This document shows, in pieces, positions 5,268-27,503 of a DNA stretch of 36,796 nt. Made by a program: the position numbers and the translations under genes. Under the pieces are notes generated by a model. The model did no database searches. It was not told where the DNA came from and worked only from the letters and a program-made list of their open reading frames with translations. Positions within the stretch are counted from its first letter, which is position 1, and each line of letters opens with the position of its first letter. This DNA is from Anaerolinea sp. (GTDB lineage: Bacteria; Chloroflexota; Anaerolineae; Aggregatilineales; Aggregatilineaceae): the NCBI GenBank assembly GCA_020725705.1, contig DYEN01000353.1, positions 1 through 36,796 of the forward strand, written 5' to 3'.

Positions 5268-5335
5268 TTCGCGCTCAAACCGGCACATCTCCCCTGACAT
5301 TGCGCCGGACTCTTTGGGAAAGATGTCACAATTTA

Positions 5336-5364
5336 TTGCTGCCCGGACTATTCCACCATAGAAT
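5336..5364 (+). promoter_or_regulatory. Putative sigma70-type promoter for the PadR gene
   Basis: TTGCTG (5336-5341), 17-bp spacer, TAGAAT (5359-5364); ATG at 5371. Confidence 0.5.
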
Positions 5365-5370
5365 AGGGTC

Positions 5371-5904
5371 ATGCTGAAGCTGACTCCGGACGATACCCTG
5401 CTCGGCTTGCTGGCCGCGCACAGCCAGCACGGCTACCAACTGCTCGAGGTGTTCCGCGACCCTGACCAGTTGGGGCGGGTGTGGTATGTCAGCACCAGCC
5501 AGCTCTACGCCGTGCTGAAGCGGCTGGAACAGCAGGGGTTGATCGCCGGGACACAGGTCACCTGTGCGGACGCGCCCCCGCGCACGGAGTACACGCTGAC
5601 CGACGCGGGGCGGGCGCGGCTGGACGCCTGGCTCGACGAGCCAAGCCCGTCGCCCAGCCTGCGACGCATCCGGGTCGAGTTTTTGAGCCGGTTGTATATC
5701 GCGGGGCTGCTGGGGCGCCCGGCCGGGCCGATCATCGCCCGCCAGCGGGCCGCCTGCCGGCGCCGCCTGGACGGCCTGCGCGCCAGGCGCGAGCAACCGC
5801 CGCAGCGTGTCGGCGATCTGGCGCTGGAGATGGTCCGCGCGCAGCTTGAGGCGATTGTCGAGTGGCTGGATCTGTGCGAGGCAGTGCTCCAGCCCCAGGA
5901 GTGA
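5371..5904 (+). CDS. PadR family transcriptional regulator
   Basis: 'LGLLAAHSQHGYQLLEVF...VWYVSTSQLYAVLKRLEQQGLIAG...RTEYTLTDAGRARLDAWL' is a classic PadR winged helix. Confidence 0.85.
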   Translation: MLKLTPDDTLLGLLAAHSQHGYQLLEVFRDPDQLGRVWYVSTSQLYAVLKRLEQQGLIAGTQVTCADAPPRTEYTLTDAGRARLDAWLDEPSPSPSLRRIRVEFLSRLYIAGLLGRPAGPIIARQRAACRRRLDGLRARREQPPQRVGDLALEMVRAQLEAIVEWLDLCEAVLQPQE

Positions 5905-5952
5905 TCCCGTTTTTCTGTCAGGTCATACTTTTTTCGGAGGCTATTCTGTCGC

Positions 5953-7395
5953 ATGGTGCCCTCACAGATGTTGAACACGCGAACTCTGAAAGCGGTCTGG
6001 CTGAGCCTGCTGGTCGGGGCGATGTTGCTGGGCGCGGCGCTGCCCGCCACCTCAACCGCTCAGGGGCAGGAGATCGTCGTCACCACGCTGGCCGATGAGG
6101 CTGCACGCGAGATTGTGGATGCCTGGATCGCGGCCTATGGCGCGCAGCATCCCGGCGCGGTCTTCGACGTCACTTATGCCCCCGCCGCTGAGCTGCTCGA
6201 CCGGCTGGGCGAGAACGTCCTGCTGCTAACGGGCGAAATGCCCGACGATCTGCCGGTCGCGTACGAGTGCGGCGCGATCGGCGCGGTCCGCATGCTGCTG
6301 CCCGATCTGGCCGGGCGCTATCTGTCCAGCGAGGACTGCGGGGACGATCTTTCTGCACCGGCTGCCGCCGCGCGCGACTTTCTCAAATGGGTGACCGGGC
6401 CGGACGGCCAGCAAGTGGCGATCGATCTGGGGCTGCTGCCGTCTGAGGTGACGGTTACCGACCAGGCGGGGATGACGGTCACCGTGCCGCAGCCGGTCCG
6501 CCGCGTGGTGTCCGCTTACGGCGTGGCCCCGTTCTATGTCTACGTCGTGGGGGCGGGCGACCGGCTGGTTGCCGCCAACTACATCGGCATCCGTGACGAA
6601 CAATCCGTCGCCGCCATGATGCGCCTGGATCCGCGCTTCGACGAGATTTCGCAGCGGATCAGCTCCATGAACCAGGGCGAGACCAACCTGGAAGAGATCG
6701 CAGCGGTGGAGCCGGACCTGCTGCTGACCAGCACCCGCACGGCCTGGCTGGATGCCGCGGGCGAGCTGAGGGTGCCGATCTTGCGCTTCGAAGGCGAGAC
6801 GCCGGAGCGGCTCAAGGAAGCGGTGGCGCTGGTTGGGGCGGTCTTCGGCCCGGACGCTGCCTACCGCGCCGCGCAGTTCAACGCGTTCTACGACGAGGTG
6901 CTCAGTTCGATCCGCGCGCAGATGACCGGCATCGAGAACCCGACCAGGGTGCTGTTCACCGGCACCGAGCCGCTACGCGTTGCCAGCGGCGGCATGTACC
7001 AGACCGCGATGATCGAGGCGGCGGGCGGCGTGTCTGTCAGCAAGGACGCGCCCGGCAGCGGCTGGCAGAACGTCAACCTGGAGCAGATCTACACCTGGAA
7101 CCCGGATGTGATCTTTGTCCCGACCTACGGCGGTGCGTCGGTCGAAGCCTTTACTGAAGACCCGCAGTGGGCGCCGATCCAGGCTGTGGCGTCGGGCAAT
7201 GTGATCCAGCTCCCGCGCCTCACAGGTCCGCTGGACATCCCCGCGCCGGACTCGATCATCGGGATTATCTGGATGGCGAACAAGCTCTATCCGGGCCAGC
7301 TTGACCTCGACTGCCAGGCGCTGACGACCGAGTTCTATAACCGTTTCTACGAGTACGCCATCACGGCAGAGGAAGCGAGCACGCTCTGCTCATGA
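5953..7395 (+). CDS. ABC transporter substrate-binding protein, BtuF/FecB-like (class III), with extra N-terminal type-II-SBP-like segment
   Basis: Signal peptide; 'VRRVVSAYGVAPFYVYVVGAGDRLVAA...EEIAAVEPDLLLTS...WNPDVIFVPTY'. N-terminal 'DFLKWVTGPDGQQVAIDLGLLPS' resembles the end of a ModA/PstS-like domain. Confidence 0.8.
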   Translation: MVPSQMLNTRTLKAVWLSLLVGAMLLGAALPATSTAQGQEIVVTTLADEAAREIVDAWIAAYGAQHPGAVFDVTYAPAAELLDRLGENVLLLTGEMPDDLPVAYECGAIGAVRMLLPDLAGRYLSSEDCGDDLSAPAAAARDFLKWVTGPDGQQVAIDLGLLPSEVTVTDQAGMTVTVPQPVRRVVSAYGVAPFYVYVVGAGDRLVAANYIGIRDEQSVAAMMRLDPRFDEISQRISSMNQGETNLEEIAAVEPDLLLTSTRTAWLDAAGELRVPILRFEGETPERLKEAVALVGAVFGPDAAYRAAQFNAFYDEVLSSIRAQMTGIENPTRVLFTGTEPLRVASGGMYQTAMIEAAGGVSVSKDAPGSGWQNVNLEQIYTWNPDVIFVPTYGGASVEAFTEDPQWAPIQAVASGNVIQLPRLTGPLDIPAPDSIIGIIWMANKLYPGQLDLDCQALTTEFYNRFYEYAITAEEASTLCS

Positions 7396-11977: not shown

Positions 11978-13810
11978 ATGAGCACAATCCAGGATCTTCC
12001 GCTGGAAGACATGCTGGCCGAAAAACCAGCGGTCGTCAATGACTTCCAGATCATGATCGCCACCGTGAACGGCTCGGGCAGCCAGACGGCCAACACCGTC
12101 CTGCTGCGCGCCATGTTTCGCATGGGCATTCCGGTGAGCGGCAAGAATATCTTTCCGTCGAATATCCAGGGACTCCCCACCTGGTACACCATTCGCCTGA
12201 GCAAAAACGGTTACACAGCGCGGCTTGAGGACTATCACGTCCTGGTCGCCATGAACCAACAAACCATCGCCGACGACATCGCCAATCTCGCACCCGGCGG
12301 CGCCTGCTATTACCCCGAAGAGTGGAACCTCAAGCACGAGCGCGACGACATCGTGTACTACCCCATGCCGGTCAAGGCGCTGACCGATGCCAGCGACGTG
12401 CCGGCCAACCTGTCGTCGTACATCGCCAACATGGTTTATGTGGGCGTGCTGGCGACCATGCTCAACATCGAGCTGTCGTACATCGAGGGCGCGCTCGACT
12501 ATCACTTCAACGGCAAAGCCAAGCCGGTTCAGATGAACATGAAGGTCGTGCAGGCCGCCTACGACTGGGCGCAGGATCACCTCGCCAAGCGCGATCCGTA
12601 CGCCGTCGAGCCGATGAACGCCACCGAAGGCCGGCTGTTGATGGACGGCAATTCGGCGGCGGCGCTTGGCGCGGTCTTCGGCGGCGTGACGTTCGCCGCG
12701 TGGTATCCGATCACACCCTCGACCAGCCTGATCGACGCGCTGCGCGAAGACCTGGCGAAGTATCGGATCGACCCGGAGACGGGTAAGGCGACCTTCGCCG
12801 TGATCCAGGCCGAGGATGAGATCGGCGCGCTCGGCATGGTGGTCGGCGCGGGGTGGGCCGGCGCGCGGGCGATGACCGCCACCTCTGGCCCCGGCATTTC
12901 GCTGATGACCGAGTTCGCGGGCCTGGCGTACTACGCTGAGGTCCCGGCGGTGATCTGGGACGTGCAGCGCATGGGTCCCAGCACCGGGCTGCCGACGCGC
13001 ACCTCGCAGGGCGACCTGCTGACCTGCTACCTGCTCGGTCACGGCGACACGCGCCATGTGGTCCTGCTGCCCGGCACGATCAACGAGATCTTCGAGTACG
13101 GCTGGCGCGCCTTTGACCTGGCCGAGCGCCTGCAAACGCCCATCTTCGTGCTGTCCGATCTGGACCTGGGCATGAACCTGTGGATGAGCGATCCGTTCGA
13201 GTATCCGGCTGAGCCGATGGATCGCGGCAAGGTGCTGACGGCTGAGGACATCGAGCGGGCGGGTCGCTTCGCGCGCTATGAGGATGTGGATGGCGACGGG
13301 ATCGGCTATCGCACGCTGCCGGGGATCGATCACCCGCTCGGTGCGTACTTCGCCCGTGGGACCGGCCATAACGCCCGCGCCGTCTACAGCGAGCGCCCGG
13401 ACGACTGGGTCGAGAACATGGCCCGGCTGCGGCGCAAATGGGAGACGGCCCGCACGCTGGTGCCCAGGCCGGTCGTTGACCAGGTGAGCGGCGCGGAGAT
13501 CGGGCTGATCGCCTTTGGCTCGACAGACCCCTGCGTGGTCGAGGCGCGCGACCAACTAAGCGCGCGCGGGATCGCGACCAGCTATCTGCGTCTGCGTGCG
13601 CTGCCGCTGGAAGACACCACGCGCCGCTTCATCGAGAGCCACGAGCGCGTCTACGTGGTGGAGAACAACACCGATGGCCAGATGGCAAGCGTCCTGCACA
13701 TGGAGTACCCGGATCTGGCCTCGCGCATTCACTCGATCGCATATTCCGACGGCCTGCCACTTTCGCCGCGCTGGCTTACGGCCGCCGTTCTAGAACAGGA
13801 AGGTCGCTAG
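11978..13810 (+). CDS. korA: 2-oxoacid:acceptor oxidoreductase, fused gamma/alpha subunit
   Basis: 'GSGSQTANTVLLRAMFRMGIPVSGKNIFPSNIQGLPTWYTIRLS' (gamma), 'GNSAAALGAVFGGVTFAAWYPITPSTSLIDAL' (alpha), 'MTEFAGLAYYAEVPAVIWDVQRMGPSTGLPTRTSQGDLL'. Confidence 0.93.
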   Translation: MSTIQDLPLEDMLAEKPAVVNDFQIMIATVNGSGSQTANTVLLRAMFRMGIPVSGKNIFPSNIQGLPTWYTIRLSKNGYTARLEDYHVLVAMNQQTIADDIANLAPGGACYYPEEWNLKHERDDIVYYPMPVKALTDASDVPANLSSYIANMVYVGVLATMLNIELSYIEGALDYHFNGKAKPVQMNMKVVQAAYDWAQDHLAKRDPYAVEPMNATEGRLLMDGNSAAALGAVFGGVTFAAWYPITPSTSLIDALREDLAKYRIDPETGKATFAVIQAEDEIGALGMVVGAGWAGARAMTATSGPGISLMTEFAGLAYYAEVPAVIWDVQRMGPSTGLPTRTSQGDLLTCYLLGHGDTRHVVLLPGTINEIFEYGWRAFDLAERLQTPIFVLSDLDLGMNLWMSDPFEYPAEPMDRGKVLTAEDIERAGRFARYEDVDGDGIGYRTLPGIDHPLGAYFARGTGHNARAVYSERPDDWVENMARLRRKWETARTLVPRPVVDQVSGAEIGLIAFGSTDPCVVEARDQLSARGIATSYLRLRALPLEDTTRRFIESHERVYVVENNTDGQMASVLHMEYPDLASRIHSIAYSDGLPLSPRWLTAAVLEQEGR

Positions 13811-13812
13811 TC

Positions 13813-14856
13813 ATGGCAGCAAACGCTCGCGTCAACGAAATCGGCCTCAGCCGCAACGATTACAAGGGCGGGGTCTCGACCCTGTGCCAGGGCTGCGGCC
13901 ACAACTCTATCGCCAACCAGATCATCGCCGTCGCCTACGAGATGTCGCTCGATCCGCACCAGATCATCAAGCTGAGCGGCATCGGCTGCTCCAGCAAGTC
14001 GCCGGCCTATTTCCTCAACCGCTCGCATGGCTTCAACGGGCTGCACGGACGTATGCCCGCTCTGGCGACGGGTGCGACGACCGTCAACCGCAGCCTGATC
14101 GCGATCGGCGTCAGCGGCGACGGCGACACCGGCAGCATCGGTCTGGGCCAGTTCAAGCATATGGTCCGCCGCAACGTGCCGATCGTCTATATCGTGGAGA
14201 ACAACGGCGTCTATGGCCTGACCAAAGGGCAGTTCTCGGCCACGGCGGATTACGGCCAGGAACTGAAATACGCCGGTGTGAACGAACTGCCACCGATCGA
14301 TATCTGCCTGGAGGCGCTGGCAGCGGACGCGTCGTTTGTGGCGCGCTCGTTCGCGGGCGATTCCAAGCAGGTTCGCGAGCTGCTCAAGGCCGCGATCGCC
14401 CACCGGGGCACGGCTGTGCTGGACATCATCAGCCCGTGCGTGACGTTCAACAACCACGAAGACTCGACCAAGAGCTATGCGTACGGCAAGGCCAAAGAAG
14501 AGCCGCTGCACGACATCACCTTCATCCCGTTCTACGAGCCGATCGAGATCGAGGATCAGGAACCGGGGCAGGTGCGCGCGGTGAAGCTCTACGACGGCTC
14601 GCATCTGATGCTCAAGGCGCTCGATCCCGCCAAGCACGACCCGACCGACCGGATGGCGGCCTTCCGCCTGCTGGAAGAGGCGCGCGAGCAGCAGCTGTTC
14701 ATCACCGGCCTGATCTATGTGGACGAGAACCGCGCCACGCTGCCGGAGATCAGCCGTCTGGTCGATACGCCGCTGGTGCACTTGCCGCCCGAAAAGCTGC
14801 GTCCGCCGCGCGAGGTGCTGGACGAGATCAACCGCCGCCTGACGTGCTGCAATTGA
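13813..14856 (+). CDS. korB: 2-oxoacid:ferredoxin oxidoreductase subunit beta
   Basis: 'LCQGCGHNSIANQIIAVAYEM', 'SGIGCSSKSPAYFLNRSHGFNGLHGRMPALATGA', 'GVSGDGDTGSIGLGQFKHMVRRNVPIVYIVENNGVYGLTKGQFS' (TPP-binding). Confidence 0.94.
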   Translation: MAANARVNEIGLSRNDYKGGVSTLCQGCGHNSIANQIIAVAYEMSLDPHQIIKLSGIGCSSKSPAYFLNRSHGFNGLHGRMPALATGATTVNRSLIAIGVSGDGDTGSIGLGQFKHMVRRNVPIVYIVENNGVYGLTKGQFSATADYGQELKYAGVNELPPIDICLEALAADASFVARSFAGDSKQVRELLKAAIAHRGTAVLDIISPCVTFNNHEDSTKSYAYGKAKEEPLHDITFIPFYEPIEIEDQEPGQVRAVKLYDGSHLMLKALDPAKHDPTDRMAAFRLLEEAREQQLFITGLIYVDENRATLPEISRLVDTPLVHLPPEKLRPPREVLDEINRRLTCCN

Positions 14857-15105
14857 GCTAAAAGCAGCGAAGGGCAGCTAAAAGCAGCGAAAGGCAGCGA
14901 GAAGCAGCTAGAAGCAGCTAGAGGCAGCTAGAAGCAGCGAAAAGCAGCGGGGAAGTGAACACAGTTCACGCCGCTGCTTTTTTTTGCTGTTCCTTGCTGC
15001 TCTTTGCTGTTCTTTGCTGTTCCTTGCTGCTCTTTGCTGTTCTTTGCTGTTTTTCGCTGCCTCTTGCTGTTCTTTGCTGTTCTTCGCTGCTCTTTGCCTG
15101 TCCTC
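14857..15105. repeat. Inverted decamer-array element, copy 1
   Basis: Left arm of 10-bp units (AAAGCAGCGA / GAAGCAGCTA / AAGGCAGCGA) 14857-14950; centre GCAGCGG-20 nt-CCGCTGC followed by T8; right arm of 10-bp units (TTTGCTGTTC / CTTGCTGCTC), about 12 copies, to about 15105. Confidence 0.9.
14941..14985 (+). terminator. Terminator-like hairpin at the centre of decamer array 1
   Basis: AAAGCAGCGG ggaa GTGAAC aca GTTCAC g CCGCTGCTTTTTTTT: nested stems followed by a T-tract. Confidence 0.7.
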
Positions 15106-15114
15106 GCCCGCTTT

Positions 15115-15142
15115 TTGTCCGGCCCTGACGCGGTGCTATACT
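15115..15142 (+). promoter_or_regulatory. Putative sucCD promoter
   Basis: TTGTCC (15115-15120), 16-bp spacer, TATACT (15137-15142). Confidence 0.45.
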
Positions 15143-15209
15143 TCACAATGGGCCATGCGAGGCCCAACTCCCCTGTACTAGAATTGTGGTCCGTTCCGGA
15201 GGCTACTCA

Positions 15210-16355
15210 GTGAACCTACACGAATATCAGTCGAAATTACGCTTCGCCGAATTCGGCATTCCCACCCCGCAGGGCAAAGTCGCCCACGATCCACAACAGG
15301 TCTATGAAATCGCCAAGGACCTCGGCAGGCCGGTGGTGGTCAAGGCCCAGGTGCTGACCGGCGGGCGCGGCAAGGCAGGTGGGGTTAAGCTGGCGCAGAC
15401 GCCCGAAGAGGCCCAGGCCCGCGCCGACGAGATCCTGGGGATGACCATCCGGGGGCACAAGGTGCTCAAGGTCCTGGTCGATCCGGCGGCTGAGATCAAA
15501 GCTGAGATCTATCTGGGGGTGACCAACGACCGCACCGCCCGCAAGCCGGTGATCATGGCGAGCGCCGAGGGTGGGATGGATATCGAAGAGGTCAACCGCG
15601 TCTCGCCGGAGAAGATCATCCGCGCGCATGTGGACCCTTTTCTCGGCCTGCGTGATTATCAGATTCGCAACCTGGCCTACGGAATTGACCTGCCGCGCGA
15701 CCTGTGGAAACAGTTTATGCACATCGCGCGGGCGCTCTATCGCTGCTATGTGGAAAGCGACGCGACGCTGGCCGAGATCAACCCGCTGATCATCGACGGC
15801 GAAGGTAATCTGCTGGCGGTCGATGGCAAGATGTCGATCGACGACAACGCGCTCTTCCGTCATCCGGACCTGGCCGAGATGCGCGATACCAGCGCCGAGC
15901 CGCCCGCCGAGACCGAGGCTCGCGCGGCGGGCCTGAGCTATGTCAAGCTGGACGGCGAGATCGGGTGCATGGTCAACGGTGCCGGGCTGGCGATGGCAAC
16001 CATGGATATGACGCAGCTTTTCGGCGGCTCGCCGGCGAACTTTCTCGATATTGGCGGCGGCGCGCGGGCGGACAAGGTCGCCGCTGCGCTGCGGATCATC
16101 GTCAGCGATCCGAATGTGAAAGCGATTCTGGTCAACATCTTTGGCGGCATCACGCGCGCCGACGAGGTCGCCCGCGGCATCCTTGAGGCGCTGGAAACGG
16201 TCAAGATCGATTTGCCGCTGGTGGTCCGGCTGGTGGGGACCAACGAGGAAGAAGCGCACCAGATCATGGCCGACGCGGCACTGCCCAACATGGTCAGCGC
16301 GACAAGTCTGGCGGATGCGGCGCAGAAAGCGGTTGCTGCCGCGCGTGGAATGTAA
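15210..16355 (+). CDS. sucC: Succinyl-CoA synthetase (ADP-forming) beta subunit
   Basis: GTG start preceded by GGAGG; '[21 protein letters not shown]...[18 protein letters not shown]...[20 protein letters not shown]'. Confidence 0.96.
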
Positions 16356-16367
16356 GGGGACGAGAGC

Positions 16368-17222
16368 ATGGCGATTCTGGTTGATAGCAGCACCCGGCTG
16401 CTGGTGCAGGGCATCACGGGACGCGAAGGGCTGTTTCACACCGAGCAGATGATCGAGTACGGGACCAATGTGGTCGGCGGCGTGACTCCCGGCAAAGGCG
16501 GCGAGTGGGTGTTGGGCAAGCCGGTGTTCGACACGGTCAAGGCCGCGCGCGACGCGACCGATGCCAACGCCAGCGTCATCTACGTCCCCGCCGCGTTCGC
16601 CGCCGACGCGATCTTCGAGGCGATCGACGCGGGGATCGAGCTGATCGTGTGCATTACCGAGGGGATCCCCGTGCTGGATATGATGAAGGTTCGCGCCTGG
16701 CTGGATCAGAGCAACAGCCGGCTGGTCGGGCCGAACTGCCCCGGCCTGCTGACGCCCGGTCAGGCGAAGGTCGGCATCATGCCCGGCCACATCGCCACAC
16801 CGGGCAACGTGGGGGTGGTCTCGCGCAGCGGCACGCTGACCTACGAGGTGGTCTACGCGCTGACGCAAGCGGGCATCGGCCAGACGACCTGCGTCGGTAT
16901 CGGGGGCGACCCGATCAACGGCACGAGCTTCATCGACGTGTTGCAGATGTTCGAGGACGACCCGGCGACCGAGAAAGTGGTGCTCATCGGCGAGATCGGC
17001 GGCACCGACGAGGAAAAGGCGGCGGCCTTCATCGCGCAGTCGATGACTAAGCCGGTCGTCGCGTTCGTCGCCGGGCGGACGGCGCCCCCTGGCCGGCGCA
17101 TGGGCCACGCCGGGGCGATCGTCGAGGGCGGCAGCGGCACCGCCGAAGACAAGATCAAGGCCCTGGCCGAGGCCGGGGTGCGGGTGGCCGAGCATCCGGA
17201 GCAGATCCCGGAACTGCTGTAG
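16368..17222 (+). CDS. sucD: Succinyl-CoA synthetase alpha subunit
   Basis: '[35 protein letters not shown]', '[14 protein letters not shown]', '[22 protein letters not shown]', '[22 protein letters not shown]'. Confidence 0.97.
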
Positions 17223-23792: not shown

Positions 23793-24368
23793 GTGAGCGA
23801 CGCTGGGTATATCCGAACGACACGCCCCGGAACGTCGCTGCGTCACTGGCTGTTTCTGGCCGGAGTCGCCGGTCTGGCGATCGCCGTCGATCAGGCCACC
23901 AAGGCGTATGTCGTGGCGCATCTGGCGCGCGGCGAGTCGTGGATGCCGGTGGAGTTCATCGCGCCCTATTTTCGCATCACCCACGTGCGCAATACCGGCG
24001 CGGCGTTCGGGGTTTTCCCAGGCGGCGGTCAGGTCTTCCTGGCGATCGCCGCCGTCATCTCGCTGCTGATCCTGTATTTCTATCGCCAGCTTCCGCGCGG
24101 GGCCTGGCCGGTGCGAACTGCCCTGGGATTGCAGTTGGGCGGGGCGCTGGGCAACGTCATCGACCGGCTGCGCCTGGATTTCGCGGTGATCGACTTTCTG
24201 CACGTGCCAGGCTTTCCGGTGTTCAACGTGGCCGATAGCTGCATCTCGATCGGGGTGGCACTGCTGGCGGTGGTGATGCTGCGCGAAGAATGGCGCGCGC
24301 GCCGCGCGGCAGGGGCCGGCGGCGAGTCGGCGCGCGGCGGCTCCCAGGAAAACACGCCGGTTCGTTGA
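23793..24368 (+). CDS. lspA: Lipoprotein signal peptidase II
   Basis: 'DQATKAYV', 'RNTGAAFGVF', 'LQLGGALGNVIDRLRLDFAVIDFLHV...FPVFNVADSCISIGVALL'. Confidence 0.96.
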   Translation: MSDAGYIRTTRPGTSLRHWLFLAGVAGLAIAVDQATKAYVVAHLARGESWMPVEFIAPYFRITHVRNTGAAFGVFPGGGQVFLAIAAVISLLILYFYRQLPRGAWPVRTALGLQLGGALGNVIDRLRLDFAVIDFLHVPGFPVFNVADSCISIGVALLAVVMLREEWRARRAAGAGGESARGGSQENTPVR

Positions 24369-24569
24369 AGCGAAGAACAGCGAAATACAGCTAAAAGCAG
24401 CCAAGAGCAGCGAAGAACGGCTACGAACAGCGAAGAGCAACAAGAAAGCAGCGGTATGAAGTGTCCTCGCTTCCCCGCTGCTTTTTGCTGTTGTATGGCT
24501 GCCTCTAGCTGCCTTTAGCTGTCTTTAGCTGTCTTTAGCTGCCTTTGGCTGCCTCTAGCTGCTTTTAGC
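24369..24569. repeat. Inverted decamer-array element, copy 2 (opposite orientation to copy 1)
   Basis: 10-bp units CGAAGAACAG / CTAAAAGCAG on the left; centre GCAGCGG-20 nt-CCGCTGC (24448-24481); 10-bp units GCCTTTAGCT / GTCTTTAGCT / GCCTCTAGCT on the right up to the AKR stop. Confidence 0.9.
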
Positions 24570-25541
24570 TTACCAAGCGTACGCTTCGGGCGCCGGGCCG
24601 CCGGGGCCGGGCCAGATCTCATCGAGGGCTTTGAGATCGTCGTCGCTCAGCTTGATCTCAAGCGCGCGCAGGCTGCCGGTGAGCTGCTCCATCGTGCGCG
24701 GGCCGATGATCGGCGCGGTGACCGCCGGCTGATGCAGCAGCCAGGCCAGCGCGACATCCGCGGGATGCTCACCTCGCTCCTTGCACCACGCTTCCCACTT
24801 TTCAAGCTGCGGGCGCAGCTTCTCGATCCGCTCCTGGACCCAGTCTTCTGTGCGGCGGCCTTCGGATGCTTTCGCCAGCGCGCCCGCCAGCACCCCGCCC
24901 GACAGCGGACTCCAGGGGATAATGCCCACGCCGTAGGCCTGGCAGGCCGGGATCACTTCCAGCTCGATGGTGCGCGCGGCGAGGTTGTAGAGGCTCTGCT
25001 CGGACACCAGCCCCATGAAATGGCGCTGTTTGGCAAGCTCGTTGGCCTGGACGATGTGCCAACCGGCGAAGTTGCTGCTGCCGACGTAGATGACCTTGCC
25101 TTCCTGCACAAGCTGCTCCATCGCCTGCCAGATTTCTTCCCAGGGCGTATTGCGGTCGATGTGATGCATCTGGTAGAGGTCGATGTAGTCGGTTTGCAGG
25201 CGCTTGAGGCTGCCTTCGCAGGCTTGCTTGATGTGCCGGGCCGAAAGCTTTGACTCGTTGGGCCAGTCACCCATCTTGCCGTAGACCTTGGTCGCCAGCA
25301 CAACCTTTTCGCGCCGACCGCCGCCCTGCGCCCACCAGCGCCCGATGATCTGCTCGGTAATGCCTTCGCCCTGTTTGCGCCCGTAGACGTTGGCCGTGTC
25401 GAAGAAGTTGATGCCCAGATCGAGGGCCTTGTCCATGATGGCGTACGAATCTGGCTCGGTGGTATAGGGGCCGAAGTTCATTGTCCCCAGGCACAGCCGG
25501 CTGACCTGCAAGCCCGTGCGTCCGAGATAGGTGTATTCCAT
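24570..25541 (-). CDS. Aldo/keto reductase
   Basis: 'MEYTYLGRTGLQVSRLCLGTMNFG', 'DKALDLGINFFDTANVYG', 'DLYQMHHIDRNTPWEEIWQAMEQLVQEGKVIYVGSSNFAGW'. Confidence 0.93.
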   Translation of the reverse strand: MEYTYLGRTGLQVSRLCLGTMNFGPYTTEPDSYAIMDKALDLGINFFDTANVYGRKQGEGITEQIIGRWWAQGGGRREKVVLATKVYGKMGDWPNESKLSARHIKQACEGSLKRLQTDYIDLYQMHHIDRNTPWEEIWQAMEQLVQEGKVIYVGSSNFAGWHIVQANELAKQRHFMGLVSEQSLYNLAARTIELEVIPACQAYGVGIIPWSPLSGGVLAGALAKASEGRRTEDWVQERIEKLRPQLEKWEAWCKERGEHPADVALAWLLHQPAVTAPIIGPRTMEQLTGSLRALEIKLSDDDLKALDEIWPGPGGPAPEAYAW

Positions 25542-25627: not shown

Positions 25628-26878
25628 TCAGGCATCCATATTCTGGATCACCGTCGAGGCGAACATGCTGGTGCTAACCTCGGTCGCGTCCGGCATCTGC
25701 CGCGCGAAATCGTAGGTCACGATCTTTTGCGCCAGCGTCTTCTCATAGGCAGCAGTGATCAACTCGGCGGCTTCGTTCCAGCCGAGGAACTCCAGCATGG
25801 TGACGCCGCTGAACATCAGCGAGCCGGGGTTGACTTTGTCGAGATCGGTGTATTTGGGCGCGGTGCCATGAGTTGCCTCGAACAGCGCGACGTGGTCGCC
25901 GATGTTGCCGCCGGGCGCGATGCCCACGCCGCCAACCTCTGCCGCGACGGCATCGCTCAGATAGTCGCCGTTCAGGTTCGGCGTGACGATCACGTCGAAT
26001 TCCTTCGGGCGCAGCAGCATATGCTGGAACATAATGTCTGCAATGCGGTCCTTAATGACGATCTTGCCTTCCGGCACCTGACCGCCATATTGATCCCACA
26101 GCTCGTCTTCGGTGATGGTCTGCTCGGGGAATTCCTCGCGGGCGACCTCGTAGCACCAGTTGCGGAAGGCGCCTTCGGTGAACTTCTGAATGTTGCCCTT
26201 GTGAACGATCGTGATGCTGGAGCGGCCGCGCTCCAGCGCGTAGCGCAGGGCAAAGCGCATCAGGCGCTTGGTCCCGAAGGCGCTGATAGGCTTGACGCCC
26301 AGGCCGCTGCCCTCGAAGAACTGCGCGCCCAGCTCCTCGCGCAGGAAGCGCGCCAGCTTTTCGTTTTCGGGCGTTCCGGCAGCATATTCGATCCCCGCGT
26401 ACACGTCCTCAGTGTTTTCGCGGAAGATCACGACATCGATGTCCTCGGGGTGGCGCAGCGGGCTGGGAACGCCCCTGTACCACTTGACCGGGCGGACGCA
26501 AGCGTAGAGGTCAAGCTCCTGGCGCAGCGTGACGTTCAGGCTGCGAAAGCCGCCGCCGACCGGTGTCGTGAGCGGGCCTTTGATCCCGACCAGGAACTCG
26601 CGCAGGGCGTCGAACGTCTCCGACGGCATATAATCGCCATCGTACAGCCTGGCGGCTTTCTCGCCCGCGTAGATCTCCATCCAGGCGATCTTGCGCTGGC
26701 CGCCGTAGGCTTTCTCGACGGCGGCATCCCAGATGCGCCGGGATGCGTTCATGATGTCGCGCCCGATGCCGTCGCCTTCGATAAAGGCAATGATCGGGTG
26801 ATCGGGCACGCATTTCGGGTCGCCCAGGCAGGTGATCTTCTCCCCCTCAGCCGGCACGACAATGTGTTGGTAGCTCAT
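25628..26878 (-). CDS. icd: NADP-dependent isocitrate dehydrogenase
   Basis: '[16 protein letters not shown]', '[44 protein letters not shown]', '[17 protein letters not shown]', '[27 protein letters not shown]'. ORF extends upstream to 27316 antisense or out of frame. Confidence 0.95.
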
Positions 26879-26969
26879 GCTCGGAACGCTCCTTATCGGT
26901 GTGACAGGTTGGGACAGGAATCGGTGGATCGCATGGCGGTGCGCGCCGCCCGGCGAGGCCGCTCGCCAG

Positions 26970-27503
26970 CTAGCTCCGCCATTTGATTGTACAGCCGACG
27001 GCCGGGGTTGTCTCGACCGGCGGTTTTGTGCCCGACAGCACCGCCTCGATCGCGTCGCGCAGGTAGGTGTGCCGGACCGCTTCGGGACGCTCGTAGTTGT
27101 CGTCGATCGCGCCGCGATAGCGTAGCACGCCCTGGCCGTCGAGCAGGTAGACGTGCGGCGTGCGCTCGGCCCCATAGGCACGGGCGACATCCTGGCTTTC
27201 GTCGTGCAGATAGAGGAAATTAAAGCCCTTTTGCTGCGCGCGGCGCCGCATGCCCTCGAAGCTGTCTTCGGGGTAACGGGTTGCGTCGTTGGGGTTGATC
27301 GCCACCAGCACCACACCGCGCTCGCCGTATTCGCGTTGCAGCGCGATCATCCGGTCTTCCCATGCCTGGACGTAGGGGCAATGGTTGCAGCTAAAGATCA
27401 CGGCGACGGCGCGGTGACCGTGTAGCAAATCTTGCAGGCGATAAGTCCGGCCGTCGATGCCGGGCAGGGTGAAGTCGGGCGCGGTCTGTCCGATCTCAAG
27501 CAT
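26970..27503 (-). CDS. Thioredoxin-family/AhpC-TSA-like redoxin
   Basis: '[27 protein letters not shown]', '[18 protein letters not shown]', '[23 protein letters not shown]'. Confidence 0.9.

Follow-up and report, generated by a model that had tools for sequence, protein, structure and literature searches.

The spacer between the convergent lspA and aldo/keto reductase (AKR) genes of an Anaerolinea sp. contig raises the question of what kind of sequence fills a gene junction from one stop codon to the other. We use "the window" for the whole stretch of DNA analysed, 36,796 nt long. Between the lspA stop and the AKR stop (24369-24570), the spacer is entirely occupied by two inverted arrays of a 10-bp unit (copy 2), and tandem-repeat, inverted-repeat and pattern scans also located decamer arrays at 14856-15097, after korB (copy 1), in both cases with purine units 5' and pyrimidine units 3' (Table 1). 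A two-unit pattern matched the window 26 times, against 0.09 matches expected by chance. A preliminary description of this DNA had proposed that the spacer holds a second, homologous array in inverted orientation. With one copy reversed, the two are indeed 79% identical over 202 nt and 84% identical over their 49-nt centres, and the arm order of copy 1 is opposite to that of copy 2. As had been described, the arm next to the korB stop and next to the AKR stop is the A-type one, and in copy 2 the lspA stop adjoins the other arm.

Table 1. Features of the two decamer-array elements and their neighbouring genes in the window.
Feature	Position	Strand	Detail
korB	13813..14856	+	Upstream neighbour of copy 1
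Copy 1 A-type arm	14856..14949	+	Shares the final base of the korB TGA (14854-14856)
Copy 1 core hairpin	14940..14981	.	AAAAGCAGCGG / 20-nt loop (14951-14970) / CCGCTGCTTTT, then T8
Copy 1 B-type arm	14979..15097	-	12 pyrimidine-strand decamers on +
lspA (signal peptidase II)	23793..24368	+	Left convergent neighbour of copy 2; orthologues in sister genera
Copy 2 left arm, B-type	24369..24443	+	Begins one base past the lspA stop (TGA 24366-24368); purine-strand decamers AGCGAAGAAC AGCGAAATAC AGCTAAAAGC AGCCAAGAGC AGCGAAGAAC GGCTACGAAC AGCGAAGAGC
Copy 2 core hairpin	24445..24484	.	AAAGCAGCGG / 20-nt loop (24455-24474) / CCGCTGCTTT
Copy 2 right arm, A-type	24480..24570	-	First A is the final base of the AKR TAA; from the AKR stop, AGCTAAAAGC AGCTAGAGGC AGCCAAAGGC AGCTAAAGAC AGCTAAAGAC AGCTAAAGGC AGCTAGAGGC ...
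Aldo/keto reductase (AKR)	24570..25541	-	Right convergent neighbour of copy 2

Each copy has a core stem CAGCGG/CCGCTG closing a loop of exactly 20 nt. The copy 2 stem is T-rich immediately outside on both strands, and its core is 91% identical to the orthologous core over aligned columns; the copy 1 loop contains an inner stem, GTGAAC-ACA-GTTCAC, with an A-T to G-C double change in the related species. The 20-nt loop noted earlier is thus present in both window copies but is not a general property, as the orthologous lspA/AKR element has a loop of 18 nt and the gap between innermost units ranges from -3 to 115 nt across elements. Relative to dinucleotide shuffles, the folding z of copy 2 was -6.3 on one strand and -6.2 on the other, and that of copy 1 was -7.6 on the + strand. 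Neither window element was flagged by a simple scan for terminators with loops of 3-8 nt, and Rfam covariance models at gathering score gave 0 matches in the window. Judged by eye from their translations, the neighbouring genes include korA-korB followed by sucC-sucD (11978-17222) and an isocitrate-dehydrogenase-like gene near AKR (25628-27316), together a 2-oxoglutarate/succinyl-CoA gene group.

The arrays were then collected from the window's genome (G000; a 4.1-Mb draft in 590 contigs, of which the contigs examined were those chosen by array content) and from two other species of the same genus (G001 and G002), all three being fragmented draft or metagenome assemblies. The database genus name "Thermoflexus sp." on two records (L031 and L036) looks doubtful, as the window IleS is only 59-60% identical to the IleS of named Candidatus Thermoflexus species. 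In total, 78 paired elements were collected (34 in G000, 36 in G001 and 8 in G002), with 1059 units, at about 35 sites per genome and with element lengths of roughly 100-290 nt. A loose unit pattern matched G000 286 times, against 11 matches for the reversed control, and G001 and G002 were likewise rich, whereas 28 genomes of the same family and order gave 0-2 matches. A strict pattern gave 111 matches, against 0 with reversed-pattern controls, and none in 249 other genomes sampled from the class; with three member species examined, the family is restricted to one genus. In IMG/VR the strict pattern retrieved only 6 stretches, apparently unrelated, and a viral origin was rejected on this result. 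Two IMG/VR entries, 3300001450_000956 and 3300025168_000012, carry perfect tandem copies of AGCCAAGAGC at or near the stretch end (L262 1-101, L263 1-101 and the end of L261), with letters identical to a B-type unit; these repeats are probably unrelated. A literature search, mostly covering papers outside subscription, found such arrays neither described in general nor in work on Chloroflexota termination. The decamer-array element is real, genus-restricted, strongly patterned and apparently undescribed.

The decamer phase was confirmed across elements, with 585 unit spacings of exactly 10 and 71 of 20, the latter having one non-matching unit between. To derive the unit consensus, we used middle units lying between strong neighbouring units, with no requirement imposed on the middle unit itself. 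The result is AGC-N-A-R-R-R-R-C, with G2 at 99.8%, C10 at 99.1%, A1 at 97.8%, C3 at 96.6% and A5 at 95.1%, A or G at each of positions 6, 7, 8 and 9, and position 4 essentially free (A.25, C.10, G.22, T.43). Since position 4 drifts within the same fast-turning arrays, the near-invariance of the other positions is best explained by constraint and not by homogenisation alone, in keeping with the selection suggested in the preliminary description. Dispersed single units showed no enrichment outside arrays (13 intergenic and 25 coding, against 16 and 43 for the reversed control).

All 78 paired elements have the purine arm first, and the reverse order was never found. A generic palindrome could take either order; with the purine arm always first, both transcripts have the U-rich arm on their 3' side, which is what bidirectional termination requires. 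By gene calls from our own hexamer caller, as opposed to a published one, convergent pairs hold 15 of the 35 G001 elements (p = 7e-5) and 18 of the 32 G000 elements (p = 8e-8), against a background of 15% (108 of 723 gene junctions). Anchoring to stop codons, first noted for the window copies, proved general, with 95 of 107 arms that face a gene end lying within 20 nt of its stop. The stops fall at discrete positions relative to the unit phase (-16 in 9 cases, -6 in 21, -2 in 8, -1 in 18 and 0 in 6), because the array often includes the stop, either as TAA/TAG in AGCTAA or through the A that it shares with TGA/TAA. Of 35 elements between convergent genes, 28 have both arms extending to the stops, which leaves no other terminator between those genes. 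Nevertheless, the array is not the organism's general terminator, as it occurs in only 9 of the 108 convergent pairs on whole-fetched G001 contigs; many array-free G001 convergent pairs have, by eye, ordinary-looking hairpins. G001 convergent spacers and some cores also contain a second repeat, of the type CCCTCACCCCAACCCC..CTCTCCC / GGGAGAGGGG, which lies inside at least one element core, e.g. that of the L240 element at about G001:C13:8087.

The two arms of an element are not equivalent. A mixture model separated A arms (T4.51, A7.85, G8.42) from B arms (G7.67, A8.87), dividing the elements into 37 AB, 29 BA, 8 AA and 4 BB. One arm of each class is thus present in 66 of 78 elements, against 39 expected (Fisher p = 4e-10), which bears out the two arm types first recognised in the window, and the G7 content of an element's two arms correlates at -0.68. 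The further proposal that the A arm faces an incoming gene end did not extend beyond the window: codirectional contexts have the A arm at the stop in 12 cases and the B arm in 16. Between orthologues, 17 AB/BA pairs keep the A/B orientation and 3 have it flipped. We found no relation of A/B polarity to GC skew or gene strand.

Beyond this difference in class, the arms of one element avoid mutual complementarity, which the preliminary description had not reported. Arm pairing within elements is 0.796, compared with 0.812 +/- 0.004 between arms of different elements, and the longest exact arm-arm run averages 6.9 within an element and 8.8 +/- 0.7 across elements. The mean arm-arm MFE is -37.5 kcal/mol, against -41.6 +/- 0.7 kcal/mol for re-paired arms, and 0 of 1000 permutations was as weak. 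The weaker folding was seen separately for innermost and outermost units and in G000 and G001, whose results are not fully independent as their elements are partly orthologous, and it persists inside the AB-only (p = 0.003) and BA-only (p = 0.025) sets. Register-specific, compensatory pairing was considered and rejected, as in-register pairing (0.796) lies among the shifted values (0.78-0.80) and below that with other-element arms (0.812). The avoidance is not an assembly filter, since the exact matches between arms average only 7-10 nt, much shorter than the k-mers commonly used in assembly. The arm difference would most simply be explained if long hairpins or cruciforms, whether of DNA or of RNA, are filtered out; in E. 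coli, palindromes are known for their instability through SbcCD.

Comparison between species shows arrays that stay in place while their contents are rebuilt. The flanks of orthologous G000 and G001 elements are about 94% identical, whereas the arms differ in unit number and sequence, with identical lengths in only 6% of 50 arms (r = 0.24). When G000 elements were placed on whole-fetched G001 contigs by flanks of 88% identity or more, the array was kept at 19 of 19 sites; the remaining placements, at 69-81% identity, look like paralogous matches and were not counted among the 19. Unit turnover with the architecture kept, suggested earlier from the two window copies, is therefore seen between species as well. 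The lspA/AKR site has an array in all three species, and the korB site keeps its array in G001, while the G002 korB contig stops where its array begins. Comparing G002 with G001, at least one array is without a G001 counterpart and another is eroded in G001. The site of presence and absence (G002:C60 460-860, L257) consists of array pieces and non-coding sequence with no evident target duplication, and its G001 counterpart (L240, G001:C13 about 5300-6600) has a tyrosine-recombinase-like gene and no array. Within arms, units are homogenised, with a lag-1 identity of 0.77 compared with 0.72 for random units.

Outside the genus, the lspA/AKR spacer of most sister genera is 57-98 nt long and contains one strong simple hairpin (for example GAACGAAACGGGCAGGCC..GGCCTGCCCGTTGTTGTTC), with A/T-rich flanks in several cases; the exceptions are L272, where the hairpin is weak, and L273, where the spacer is longer and unrelated. 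Such a terminator-like hairpin in most sister genera, like the restriction of the arrays to one genus, had not been part of the preliminary description.

Any explanation has to account for the anatomy, location and turnover of the arrays, the constraint on their sequence, the avoidance between arms and the terminator-like hairpins at one sister-genus site. Purine-first order, a U-rich 3' arm on both strands, placement and the sister hairpins together point to bidirectional termination. We propose that the arrays are hypervariable bidirectional terminator-type 3'-end hairpins, built into two inverted decamer arrays with the arms kept imperfect; as a reading of sequence, we give it roughly an even chance of being correct. 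The transcript of either gene would pass from its stop codon through purine-rich units (AGCNARRRRC) and a short core into U-rich units (GYYYYTNGCT), and the RNA would form a long, imperfect hairpin whose 3' arm is U-rich. The likely function of the element would be to end both transcripts. The array may also serve as a ladder of pauses behind the growing hairpin. Slippage or unequal recombination would let arms gain, lose and homogenise units, and elements with over-complementary arms would probably be lost through hairpins or cruciforms in DNA or over-stable RNA, so that an A-type arm (T4, A7) and a B-type arm (G7, A8) remain.

A more specific form of this proposal is a genus-specific terminator class in which the 10-nt repeat, matching in length the RNA-DNA hybrid of RNA polymerase and in layout the consensus pause geometry, makes a bidirectional ladder for pausing and termination, and the arms are actively kept different against unstable palindromes by a breaking of A/B symmetry; we put it forward tentatively and think it unlikely.

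Both forms of the proposal draw on the consensus pause geometry, abbreviated G-10Y-1G+1. U-rich sites of this form make up 8.0% of 3'-arm positions, compared with 0.11% of the genome, and fall to less than 1% when units are re-spaced to 9 or 11 nt, as each 3' unit ends in T and the next begins with G, so that a 10-nt step recreates G-10, Y-1 and G+1 over a U-rich hybrid. The match is only suggestive, since any 10-nt repeat containing YG has this geometry; the strong pause determinant G-2 is absent from the arrays, and a founder may simply have handed down the 10-nt period. Sequence of the hybrid and of the fork junction matters in the elemental pause (PMC6336406). A GC-rich stem with a U-tract is clear in both window cores and several others, and many cores are without a long GC stem and T-run. 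A/T content shows no increase toward the core, and the unit next to the core has no terminator-like A/T enrichment. Changed core pairs between species include 56 broken and 36 retained, so that covariation argues only weakly for the core pairing.

The stop codons could point to another function. In a REP-like 3'-end element, a hairpin flush with the stop would stall the last ribosome or block 3'-5' exonucleases, and REPs within 15 nt of a stop are reported to stall ribosomes (PMC12306157). The long, stable 3' structure suits this, as do the discrete unit phases of gene stops and the many arms that supply a stop, since A-type units contain TAA/TAG and a 10-nt repeat offers them in all three frames. 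We nevertheless consider it unlikely, as it explains neither the strict purine-then-pyrimidine order nor why two convergent genes should both rely on one element, and it overlaps with termination instead of excluding it. Alternatively, the constraint could act on DNA, with phased 10-bp sites on one helical face binding a protein or placing a bend or supercoil sink in the manner of a BIME. A period near one helical turn, nearly invariant AGC and C positions and the enrichment between convergent genes would all fit such sites; outside arrays, however, isolated or short copies show no enrichment (13 intergenic, compared with 16 in the reversed control), an A4 tract occurs in only about a fifth of units, and arm polarity follows neither GC skew nor gene strand. 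As phased sites also predict neither arm avoidance nor a constant purine-first order, we regard this as quite improbable.

It may instead be that nothing maintains the arrays, and that slippage-duplicated A-rich and T-rich terminator flanks, or a dispersed founder, gave rise to selfish or neutral repeats that merely persist. Very fast unit turnover, internally homogenised arms, homologous window cores and the eroded and missing copies between G002 and G001 are what one would expect of it. We find it rather improbable, because in arrays whose position 4 varies freely the adjoining positions are 95-99.8% fixed, and because 19 of 19 sites are retained; slippage arising independently at each locus would not yield a common unit at about 35 sites per genome, and founder dispersal does not by itself predict that some avoidance persists within the AB and BA classes. 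An assembly artefact or chance low-complexity sequence is hardly credible. Repeats are hard to assemble, the assemblies are all fragmented, and three G000 contigs end inside an array, but arrays recur at matching sites, between unique flanks, in three species that were assembled separately, and the exact arm-arm matches are far too short for assembly k-mers. The preliminary description had taken random orientation relative to stops, or a variable loop length, as the mark of coincidental low-complexity sequence; the A/B orientation is random and the loop is variable, yet with no reversed-pattern matches against 111 the element is clearly not coincidental.

Among described systems, the closest in placement are bidirectional intrinsic terminators, in which a hairpin is flanked, on both strands, by A-rich sequence 5' and T-rich sequence 3' (PMC1852404). 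Similar to these, the arrays occur at convergent and operon-final gene ends, lie at gene 3' ends in 95 of 107 arms and form a stable RNA hairpin on both strands, as in copy 2. In contrast to a single hairpin, they comprise roughly 100-290 nt of tandem decamers, are flush with or supply the stop codon, share one unit across their sites and have arms kept imperfect. As the U-tract is found only in part of the cores and termination is deduced, we do not class the arrays as proven bidirectional intrinsic terminators. The DUS/USS of Neisseria and Pasteurellaceae are also lineage-specific short motifs that recur as inverted pairs at terminators (PMC1852404). These are pairs of an exact word, whereas the arrays are of a tandem, degenerate unit with no dispersed single copies, its pattern found only in the three genus members examined; an uptake sequence, for which many dispersed copies are expected, was rejected because isolated units do not exceed the reversed control. 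REP/BIME elements share the abundance of extragenic palindromic repeats close to stop codons but have a fixed palindrome of 20-40 nt, while the arrays have a period-10 tandem structure and a position fixed between species as the inside turns over. A REP/BIME unit was excluded since the array repeat is a non-palindromic degenerate decamer and not a conserved 20-40 nt palindrome, and a MITE was excluded by the 19 G000 sites all shared with G001 and by stop-to-stop arms without constant ends. Finally, hairpin-cluster terminators have clusters of short separate hairpins near the stop (PMC8355165) and resemble the arrays in having several hairpin-forming segments acting together there; the array instead forms a single long, nested hairpin that is made of repeated units and read from both strands.

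If the terminator reading is correct, these elements would be terminators that evolve like a satellite repeat, with position, orientation and key letters preserved. They would offer a natural experiment on what a terminator arm requires, with about a thousand unit copies, many variants among them, at shared sites in two species with about 94% identity in the flanking DNA. Through arm self-avoidance, selection against long hairpins would leave a signature that can be measured in genomes. The decamer period would also make it possible to test directly, and at low cost, whether pauses fall at multiples of the RNA-DNA hybrid length.

Some individual arrays stand apart from the paired form. A one-sided array of at least 20 units is found at G000:C175 289-549 (L149), and its orthologue at G001:C4 about 122942-123011 (L173) has 7 units; with the opposite arm undetected, this is possibly a single-arm form. 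At G001:C4 about 216060-216282 (L177), one arm alternates AGCTACAAGC and AGCTAAAGAC several times, making a 20-nt higher-order repeat that looks like a very recent expansion.
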